A stretch of DNA of 64,000 nt from Nematocida parisii ERTm1 (taxonomy: Eukaryota > Microsporidia). The DNA lies in the NCBI RefSeq assembly GCF_000250985.1, contig NW_013524650.1, forward strand, positions 53,543 through 117,542, in the 5' to 3' direction. Position numbers and translations under genes: made by a program. The notes below the pieces were generated by a model. It was not told the origin of the DNA. It saw only the letters and a program-made list of their open reading frames with translations, and searched no databases. Below, piece by piece: positions 45,785-48,561 of the stretch. Positions within the stretch are counted from its first letter, which is position 1, and the number at the start of each line of letters is the position of its first letter.

Positions 45785-46338
45785 ATGTATGATGGAATAA
45801 CACCAGCAAAGAGAAACTTAAATGGACTAAGCCATATAAAACATTCTATAATGAGAATGGCTCGCATGATAGTAAACATTACTAATGACAAAGACGCGTA
45901 CCCATCAATACTCAACTTTTCAACTACTGAGCCTACAGCTGAGAAGAATAAAGAGGAAGACAAGATATCCGAGTTGTCCAACAATATCTCAAATTTATTT
46001 GTGTCTGTGGTGTTTTATGTTTTGACATCAATGTGTACTTTATTGATTACAAAATCAATTAGTTGTGTGGGAGCTGATGCAATGAAGTTCATAACTAATT
46101 TATTGAACAACACTGCATTTGAAAATGAAATAGTATTATCTGCAATTAGTATTTTTGTGACTGCATTTATAGTACAAATCATATTTATGCTATTCAACCT
46201 TAATGCATGGAAAGATTCTATATGCTTAATATATAAGAATTCTAGGAAAAAGATATTAGGTGTAATACTATTTATAATATCAGTATTTACAGGGATGAGC
46301 ATTAATACTGTAGTCTGGATTAGTCTTATTGTAATAAC
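45785..46338 (+). pseudogene. 5' part of a membrane-protein gene interrupted by an LTR element
   Basis: This is the first 184 codons (plus two bases) of a membrane-protein gene: a polar N-terminal region (about 1-70), then hydrophobic segments at about 71-95, 115-140 and 158-184. At 46338 the coding sequence runs into the long terminal repeat. The present frame picks up 11 codons of repeat sequence and stops at 46375. The remainder of the gene resumes in phase at 48309 beyond the element and the duplicated ataac. The family is unknown, and it sits with two other multi-pass genes upstream. The interruption removes the last two hydrophobic segments, so the product is probably non-functional unless the truncated form is tolerated. 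Confidence 0.85.
46334..46338 (+). repeat. target-site duplication, left copy (ataac)
   Basis: Five bases, ataac, immediately before the left repeat; the identical five bases follow the right repeat at 48304-48308. Five-base duplications are typical of LTR-retroelement integrase. Confidence 0.85.
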
Positions 46339-46541
46339 AGTTGTTTTCTTAGGAAAAGGCATTCTTAAACTTTGACTTTTATTGAATTTGTATACGTATT
46401 TATAGACCGTAAAATCAATTTAAATTATGTTGCCATGCTGTGTAACAATAATTTCCGATCTAGTCTGAGCTGTGTCATGTTTATGTAAAACATTACAATA
46501 ACTCATGTCATGCTAACAAATGCTATTCTTAGCATACAACA
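46339..46541 (-). repeat. LTR, left copy (3' LTR in the Gag orientation)
   Basis: 203 bp, identical by eye to 48101-48303. In the Gag orientation it begins TGTTGT and ends ACAACT, a nearly perfect terminal inverted repeat; the TG start is canonical while the end is CT rather than CA. On the element side it is preceded (Gag strand) by CCCAGGGA, a possible short polypurine priming site. Confidence 0.88.
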
Positions 46542-47215
46542 TCCCTGGGCAAACCTTTTGACCACTCGAAAGTTTTCTTATTCCAACTTGAGTTACTTTG
46601 TTTTCAGATTATACCTAGCATTCCTTGCTTCTGATCCTAATCCTTCCACCCTTTTTTTTGTCTCTGTCTTTTCTTTCTTCTATTTTCCTAACCTTTGCTC
46701 ATCCTTATTTTTATTTTTAACATTACCTTTTTTTTTTCTTCCCATCCTATTGGATGCTCGTTAGCTTGTATCTGCTGTTAGTAGTTCCTTACGTGTGAAT
46801 GTGATTCTAGGAAATTTCTAGATAATATTAAACTTACCCCCGGTAGGTTCACTCCCTCCCCTTTGTTAAGCCTTGAACCCCATCCTTCTGTGTTCATCTC
46901 CTTATATTATCTCTCTCTAAATTTCCTTCTTTGGTTCCTTTTGATATCTCTCGATCTTTGTTTCTCTCTTGTCTTCCAATCTGATTCTCTTCCATACGAT
47001 ACTTCTTCCCTACGGTACTTCTTCTCTACAGTCCTTCTCATATCACTCCAGTTCCCATCTGACGTAAGAACTACCCTATCTGACCTCATATTTCTCCTTA
47101 TGCCTTACTTAACTTCTCCTCTGGCCTTCTGCCCTCTTCCGTTCTCGCTTCTGCATTATACTTATTCAGCTCTTGGTAGCTCGTGTTTCCAAAATAGTTC
47201 TCTCTCTCTCTCTCT

Positions 47216-48124
47216 CTAATCTCGCTTCACCTCTTGGGCTGGCTCCATTTTCTCCTGCTTTTTCTGATAGCATTCAGCTTCTATATGTCCCGGCTTACTG
47301 CAATGATAACACGTTTTATTTATGCTCCTAAGCGGACTATTCCCTCTTGAATGAGTCTCTTTCACCTCATTCTTCTTCACTGCTGTCTCCTCCCTATCAC
47401 CTCTACTTAACCTAATTAATTGATCCATGATTGATTCTATTGAACTCTCCCATCTGACATAAGCCCATCCCTTTGGATACTTATTCGCATTCAGTTCAAT
47501 CTCCTGCTGCAACTCTTTCATGGTGTACTCTTTCGCAAACGTGATATAACATAACACTTTACATACCCATAGTTCCCAGCTATTTCCACACTTCCTCACA
47601 TCTGGCACCTCAAATAATTTTCTCTTCCCATATTCAATTATTAACCTTTCTAAATCCCCTTCTACTTCTGTCCATGGTCTTTTCGTTTCAGATATCTTCT
47701 CCTCAATCTCTAAGTCCCTTCCATACTTTTGTATTTGCTTCCTCAAAACGGCCCAATTTGGATTATTCGCAATATCCATTCCTCTATGTACCAACTGTAC
47801 CTTCTCTTTGGCCGAAAGTCTTCCCTTCCTGTCCGCAACGAACCATACATTGTCTAAATCCTCTATAACACTTCTACACGAATTATTAAAGTTCACATTA
47901 TTTCTTATATATTGCATAGCTTTCTCTATAATCCTGTCTACTATTCTTTCTTCTCTACGCTCTGCCGCTAGCTCTGCGTCTATTTCAGAATCTGTGGAGT
48001 CTTCCTCCTCTCTTCTTTTCTTGTACGGAGCTCTTGACTCAGAGTGGCGTAATATATTTTGAAGTTTCTGTTCTTCAGTTAACTCCCTATCTTCATTACT
48101 AGTTGTTTTCTTAGGAAAAGGCAT
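47216..48124 (-). CDS. Gag-like protein with C-terminal zinc knuckle
   Basis: A 302-residue protein. The N-terminus is charged and disordered (about 1-60). Residues about 60-245 are helical and could be a capsid domain with conserved-looking Trp residues. A single CX2CX4HX4C knuckle (Cys272, Cys275, His280, Cys285) lies near the C-terminus, the usual nucleocapsid position. The first eight codons (MPFPKKTT) lie inside the right LTR, so translation starts in the LTR and runs through the expected primer-binding region, as in Ty1-type elements. There is no frameshift into a pol frame. Cellular CCHC proteins are an alternative, but the flanking LTRs make Gag far more likely. Confidence 0.78.
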   Translation of the reverse strand: MPFPKKTTSNEDRELTEEQKLQNILRHSESRAPYKKRREEEDSTDSEIDAELAAERREERIVDRIIEKAMQYIRNNVNFNNSCRSVIEDLDNVWFVADRKGRLSAKEKVQLVHRGMDIANNPNWAVLRKQIQKYGRDLEIEEKISETKRPWTEVEGDLERLIIEYGKRKLFEVPDVRKCGNSWELWVCKVLCYITFAKEYTMKELQQEIELNANKYPKGWAYVRWESSIESIMDQLIRLSRGDREETAVKKNEVKETHSRGNSPLRSINKTCYHCSKPGHIEAECYQKKQEKMEPAQEVKRD

Positions 48125-48303
48125 TCTTAAACTTTGACTTTTATTGAATTTGTATACGTATTTATAGACCGTAAAATCAATTTAAATTATGTTGCCATGC
48201 TGTGTAACAATAATTTCCGATCTAGTCTGAGCTGTGTCATGTTTATGTAAAACATTACAATAACTCATGTCATGCTAACAAATGCTATTCTTAGCATACA
48301 ACA
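48101..48303 (-). repeat. LTR, right copy (5' LTR in the Gag orientation)
   Basis: 203 bp, identical by eye to 46339-46541 and followed by the duplicated ataac. In the Gag orientation it is the upstream LTR, so it should hold the element promoter, and it contains the Gag start codon at 48122-48124. Confidence 0.88.
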
Positions 48304-48308
48304 ATAAC
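48304..48308 (+). repeat. target-site duplication, right copy (ataac)
   Basis: The second copy of the 5-bp ataac, directly outside the right LTR, matching 46334-46338. Confidence 0.85.
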
Positions 48309-48561
48309 CAAGTTTTTTGCAATAAATGACATTATAATGTGCATGGGAATCCCTCAAATATTTGGGTGTGCTTTCATGATCAAAATAGTATATGATATTT
48401 ATCAGAACAAAGCCGGAAAGCGACAGATTTACGAATATATTATTGGTGCAAACTGCGTTGTTATATTTGCGCTCTACATTACATCTATTATATGCAACTT
48501 TGACATTAACAAGACACAAGTAACTGTGTTTATGAAAAAACTCCATGCATACTATACATAG
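48309..48561 (+). pseudogene. 3' part of the interrupted membrane-protein gene
   Basis: From base 48309 the frame that broke off at 46338 continues without a stop to TAG at 48559-48561. It includes two more hydrophobic segments (around the IIMCMGIPQIFGCAFM and NCVVIFALYITSIICN parts) and a polar end, KKLHAYYT. The two parts sum to 807 bases, exactly 269 codons with stop. An ATG at 48337 could allow a 74-residue fragment to be made on its own. Confidence 0.82.

Follow-up and report, generated by a model that had tools for sequence, protein, structure and literature searches.

TR-GAG elements of plants, reportedly described by Chaparro et al. in 2015, are the closest known kind to the element considered here: they have two LTRs, one Gag ORF and no pol. 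According to passages of PMC8704663, new insertions of one Arabidopsis TR-GAG have been found and a related autonomous element was suggested as donor; they also mention a non-autonomous element that jumps and belongs to a family without autonomous members. For the host genus, passages of PMC4202319 give four LTR families in N. parisii and six in Nematocida sp., with a tree built on polyproteins (four from N. parisii, three from Nematocida sp.). As far as those passages go, the Nematocida elements resemble the present one in their Ty3-type-related Gag and in LTRs with a target duplication, and differ from it in having pol. No gag-only element of microsporidia was found in the open-licence literature at the level of titles and abstract starts, nor in the portions consulted of PMC10759460, PMC7313128 and PMC13174016.

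The stretch analysed, referred to as the window, is 64,000 nucleotides of Nematocida parisii ERTm1 (contig NW_013524650.1, positions 53,543 to 117,542). It contains an element with two LTRs, a single gag ORF and no pol, which is read, with a probability of about 0.82, as a recently inserted non-autonomous internal-deletion derivative of Ty3/gypsy kind; LTRs and gag would have been kept, and reverse transcriptase (RT), RNase H, the integrase core and any protease lost. Mobilisation in trans, as for TR-GAG, is suggested by a recent insertion in an element that lacks pol. It differs from the plant elements in that its host is a microsporidian, Gag starts within the LTR and a single full-length copy is seen beside at least 38 unpaired LTRs; moreover, neither a tRNA primer site nor, across the assembly, a donor whose LTRs match was found.

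Structure of the element, split host gene and age

Table 1. Features of the element and of the gene that it interrupts. Positions are those of the window. LTRs, target-site duplication, split host gene, open Gag ORF and decayed integrase tail, like the related solo LTRs treated below, are read directly from the letters. 5' and 3' of LTRs and internal regions refer to the Gag orientation.
Feature	Position	Strand	Basis
Host gene 5' part, 184 codons	45785..46338	+	123/184 residues identical to NEIRO03_0840 of Nematocida sp. AWRm78
Target-site duplication ATAAC, left copy	46334..46338		Sequence; outside repeats
3' LTR, 203 bp, TGTTGT...AAACAACT	46339..46541	-	Identity with other LTR and genome copies
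Integrase C-terminal remnant, ~104 codons, 4 in-frame stops, ends ...KGLPRDVVC* with last codons in LTR	46529..46852	-	Similarity to C1:937433 element
Junction block AAAAGGTTTGCCCAGGGA, expected place of plus-strand primer	46542..46559	-	17/18 nt common to C1:937433 element
3' internal region, 674 bp, without long ORF, Gag strand 72% purine	46542..47215	-	ORF scan and sequence
Gag ORF, 302 aa, first 8 codons within 5' LTR	47216..48124	-	ORF scan and homology
CX2CX4HX4C zinc knuckle of Gag	47270..47311	-	Sequence motif
Expected place of primer-binding site, none found	48071..48100	-	tRNA comparison
5' LTR, 203 bp	48101..48303	-	Identity with other LTR
AATAAA in 5' LTR	48140-48145	-	Sequence
TATAAATA in 5' LTR	48159-48166	-	Sequence
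Target-site duplication ATAAC, right copy	48304..48308		Sequence; outside repeats
Host gene 3' part, open, in frame	48309..48561	+	65/81 aligned residues identical to NEIRO03_0840

Alignment within the window gives two direct repeats that are 100% identical at an offset of 1762, the arrangement expected of the paired LTRs of an LTR retrotransposon, with ATAAC immediately outside each. The earlier note on this DNA had proposed the same repeats and offset without mismatch, ataac at both outer edges, ends TGTTGT...ACAACT in the Gag orientation and a Gag-like CCHC ORF with no visible pol. The repeats and the edges are exactly as proposed, the ends run from TGTTGT to AAACAACT, and the minus-strand ORF carries a knuckle; a scan of the interior between the repeats for a long pol ORF found none. 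The octamer TATAAATA is taken here to be the TATA motif of the LTR; at LTR positions 133-156, which span this motif, 94-96% of copies agree with the window LTR. Next to the 3' LTR, where a polypurine tract is expected, lies a conserved block in which the purines do not form a clean run.

The element interrupts a host frame of 268 codons behind codon 184. Joining the flanks and retaining a single ATAAC gives an open frame of 268 aa that aligns end to end with the AWRm78 protein. Used as a protein query (E up to 0.001), the left part of the split gene retrieved the window's own 196-aa ORF and this 265-aa protein, and nothing else; the hydrophobic stretches of the left part are read as putative membrane spans. 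Neither half of the split gene has acquired a stop or a frameshift, which is an independent sign of youth. The insertion therefore appears recent on four counts: identical LTRs, a perfect duplication, a host frame undecayed on both sides and a terminal position in the LTR tree (see below). The description of a fresh, gag-only and non-autonomous element in a compact genome, made beforehand from the letters, thus holds.

Misassembly can yield two close identical stretches of 203 bp, so that the pair of repeats might be an assembly duplication. This is most improbable: the flanks differ, ATAAC lies outside both repeats, and a protein database lists three contigs for the Gag (longest 101,016) and five for the host ORF truncated by the LTR (longest 394,255, which is not the 389,905 contig of this assembly). 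Since Gag and truncated ORF are listed in several contigs, an LTR at this site is probably shared by other assemblies. The two extra contigs with the host ORF might reflect alleles with a solo LTR, LTR pairs collapsed in assembly or breaks between contigs.

The LTR family in the genome

The genome searched comprises 3.98 Mb in 11 contigs; loci are written as contig:position (C1, C2 and so on). The LTR search, in which 40 of 49 candidates were scored, gave 42 matches: the two of the window, two short fragments adjoining other matches, and 38 other places. Counts are lower bounds; closer inspection reveals weaker fragments (e.g., a second one in L045). The search for further copies and solo LTRs proposed in the earlier note thus places the LTR at 38 or more other sites, and the 1559-bp internal sequence was found nowhere else in the genome. 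The 38 places fall within 35 loci that were retrieved. Their LTRs are full length, give or take 2 nt at either end, in 33 cases (L050 among them is shortened inside) and truncated in five. No second LTR that would pair as a full-length element was seen for any of them: near neighbours are on opposite strands or do not have a duplication common to both. Two C10 copies on the same strand, 2.1 kb apart, were considered as a pair and discarded, each having its own duplication; so were C2:450720 and C2:458078, the first with its own duplication and the second with none. The family as seen consists of one full-length element and solo LTRs.

Duplications were counted at the 33 full-length solos, the five truncated LTRs being left out. 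Exact 5-bp duplications flank 15 (0.06 expected when flanks are taken from different copies); 10 others have one mismatch and 8 have more. Duplications of 3, 4, 6 or 7 bp were found at 0/33, so the target duplication has the fixed length of an LTR retrotransposon: 5 bp across solos, ATAAC in the window. Because the LTR recurs genome-wide and is flanked by these duplications, a chance origin of the repeat pair is excluded.

The LTR tree (no support values) is ladder-like, with older copies branching successively along one trunk; a single active line that leaves solos behind would give this pattern. The window LTRs are at the tip, beside two solos that each differ by 1 nt. In a family of about 40 copies, sequence could be exchanged, and an old insertion might have had its LTRs made identical by gene conversion. 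Against this stand the perfect duplication, the host halves that are still open and in frame, and the location of the two nearest LTRs at other loci with exact duplications of their own; conversion is accordingly judged quite improbable.

Integration targeted to tRNA genes, as in Ty3, was also considered and rejected: of the 40 LTR places, counting both LTRs of the window, 1 starts within 1 kb of a tRNA versus 1.0 expected, and 7 do so within 5 kb versus 4.6 expected. Three solo LTRs have particular surroundings. Those at C2:594524 and C2:458078 have similar flanks on both sides, which suggests a duplication that carried the LTR; that at C2:505802, with duplication TTTTC, lies at codon 617 of a joined frame of 632 aa.

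Gag, the integrase remnant and the loss of pol

The ATG of Gag is inside the 5' LTR, 24 nt from its end. An ATG is kept at this place in 32/33 full-length solos, and in 31 it is exactly 24 nt from the LTR end. Ty1 of yeast, a Ty1/copia element with pol and a tRNA-Met primer site, also has its Gag start codon inside the LTR; the present element resembles it in this feature and differs in having neither pol nor a primer site that could be found. Pfam gives a single clear hint for the ORF, zf-CCHC (18 bits, E 0.003; below the 20.8 cut-off), so that the CCHC knuckle usual in a Ty3/gypsy Gag is present as a sequence motif with a sub-threshold Pfam score. The ORF is identified as Gag by homology to ORFs of the same genome: it is 31% identical to the Gag preceding an RT at C1:937632, and further related ORFs are at C1:407300, C1:85758 and C3:469642, with a broken remnant at C5:47454. 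Two of these relatives (C1:937632, C3:469642) are upstream of, or in one frame with, an RT. Single and profile searches of public proteins retrieved the window's own protein only, a weak negative, the profile having scored 7999 candidates.

At about 30% identity the relatives are too distant for a selection test. Differences from the C1 relative by codon position (0.52, 0.48, 0.63) are weakly coding-like and saturated. At the stop density of the integrase tail (4 in 104 codons), an open frame of 302 codons would have a probability of 7e-6, a figure that presumes equal decay rates for Gag and tail.

Other Gag-related ORFs of this genome, such as that at C1:85758, have no detected paired LTRs, and the ORF of the window might in the same way be a domesticated Gag gene lying between LTRs by accident. 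It has, however, paired identical LTRs and their own target duplication, from which it follows that the whole unit jumped recently, and domestication has next to no probability here. The ORF at C1:85758 itself has a long D/K/R/P-rich repeat of 9-nt period and is a possible Gag-derived host gene.

The nearest relative is the element at C1:937433-941214. Its two LTRs, of ~211 bp (216 in the alignment), share 97.7% identity, and it is older on that account. Its Gag is homologous from residue 1, the first 43 nt of its LTR are 80-83% identical to the window LTR, and its 3' junction has AAAAGGTTTGCCCCGGGA before TGTTGTATGC; the junction common to both elements is AAAAGGTTTGCCC[A/C]GGGA, followed by TGTTGTATGCTAAGA. 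In the C1 element this junction encodes the end of pol, ...KGLPRDVVC*, which runs into the LTR. The two differ in that the C1 element has RT (motif YIDD) and RNase H, both absent from the window element, and LTR similarity is found mainly at the ends, the middle hardly matching. A search for an integrase core at the C1 element found none. The order RT then RNase H in its pol is the reason for assigning the window element to Ty3/gypsy. At low stringency, LTR similarity was also found in 105 nt that directly precede the C3 gag-RT frame (66%, E 2e-5), in a stretch of reversed orientation ahead of the C1:407300 gag (69%, E 3e-16) and in bits near C5:47454; these loci therefore have older relatives of the LTR. 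An LTR at C3:178080-178273, of the C1:937433 kind with 87% identity, is apparently a solo.

The pol order RT-RNase H-integrase of Ty3/gypsy elements is lacking in the window element, where a decayed integrase tail is the only part seen. The tail aligns with the C1:937433 element in one frame (25% identity, four stops). Without the conserved last 60 nt it scores 51, compared with a maximum of 43 in 200 shuffles (0/200 reach it); the tblastn value without composition correction, E 9e-7, overstates the significance. Since both Gag and the tail resemble the C1:937433 element, the window element is most simply explained as derived by deletion from an ancestor with pol.

Gag and integrase-tail ends that both resemble one element are what a simple internal deletion leaves, and such a deletion might have occurred in place, in an autonomous element inserted here. 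This is improbable, as decay in place would have struck the LTRs too: the tail has four stops and 25% identity, whereas the LTRs have no difference. Derivation before insertion is preferred. The tail carries stops while the LTRs are identical, so its decay apparently predates the last insertion, and the pol-less form itself would have made the last jump; its enzymes would then have come in trans. As the tail decayed while gag stayed open, this form has probably gone through more than one round of replication, to the extent that one copy can indicate it.

Candidate enzyme donors and priming

The steps proposed for the preferred reading are as follows. The element would be transcribed from the LTR, with its presumed TATA motif; the RNA would be translated into Gag from the ATG inside the LTR; Gag would form particles around the element RNA; and the missing enzymes would be provided by another element.

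RVT_1 matches are found at six loci of the genome and rve matches at four, two of them under the cut-off. No RVT_1 or rve locus coincides with an LTR match, and no intact pol with these LTRs was found in the assembly. The autonomous partner sharing the LTRs that the earlier note expected elsewhere was thus not recovered at any of the six RVT_1 loci. A partner of the same lineage may have been lost, be unassembled or unscored, or the enzymes may come from another lineage.

Three long open gag/pol or pol frames have an altered RT motif in which the double aspartate is replaced: YIDS at C3:471301 (C3:469642 region, 1035 aa open), YVDT at C4:348658 (687 aa) and YYEN at C6:167741 (472 aa); they are possibly domesticated or recently dead. 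One RVT_1 locus (L020) has the RT domain only and is read as telomerase. Among the rve loci, one is in a frame of 1146 aa, and the remaining three either lack RT or are partial. Integrase-like ORFs without RT match and with sub-cut-off rve are at C2:302192 (416 aa), which by eye seems to be without the usual catalytic triad, and at C1:548785 (236 aa).

The 1146-aa frame (C1:37446; 1067 aa scanned) has RT, RNase H, H2C2, integrase and a sub-threshold knuckle; no protease match was found in the part scanned. It belongs to a nearly complete Ty3-type element of ~3.6 kb, C1:37411-40971, and is the sole frame that unites RT, RNase H and integrase. This element has an exact 50-bp terminal repeat and a Gag start inside the LTR; the repeat is read as LTRs of 49 bp (TGTAAGG...TTCACA) with the duplication TTTAT. 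Such LTRs are very short for an element of this type and unrelated to those of the window. From its sequence it is the most complete candidate donor, of another lineage.

Priming was examined at the place where a tRNA primer-binding site is expected, after the 5' LTR (53 tRNAs, offsets 0-7). No site was found: the best exact match is 2 nt at tRNA 3' ends and 5 nt at internal positions, with shuffle means of 1.4 and 6.5, respectively. The same test gave a 15-nt perfect match to a tRNA 3' end, read as tRNA-Pro, for the C1:37411 element, and no site for the relatives at C1:937433 and C1:407300. In self-priming elements of the Tf1/sushi type, the 5' end of the RNA is complementary to the sequence after the LTR. 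Here the LTR end and the first 60 nt are complementary over 6 nt at most (shuffle mean 5.9; exact pairing only). A stronger form of the preferred reading, a self-perpetuating gag-only lineage that has outlived its own pol, takes RT and integrase from an unrelated lineage (e.g., C1:37411) and is primed without tRNA, would be compatible with these results and is rather unlikely.

Although microsporidian genomes serve as models of reduction, this one appears to have recently received a pol-less retroelement that split a gene. Its single open Gag copy, its ladder of solo LTRs and its very small number of candidate donors would make it unusually well suited to asking what mobilises a gag-only element.
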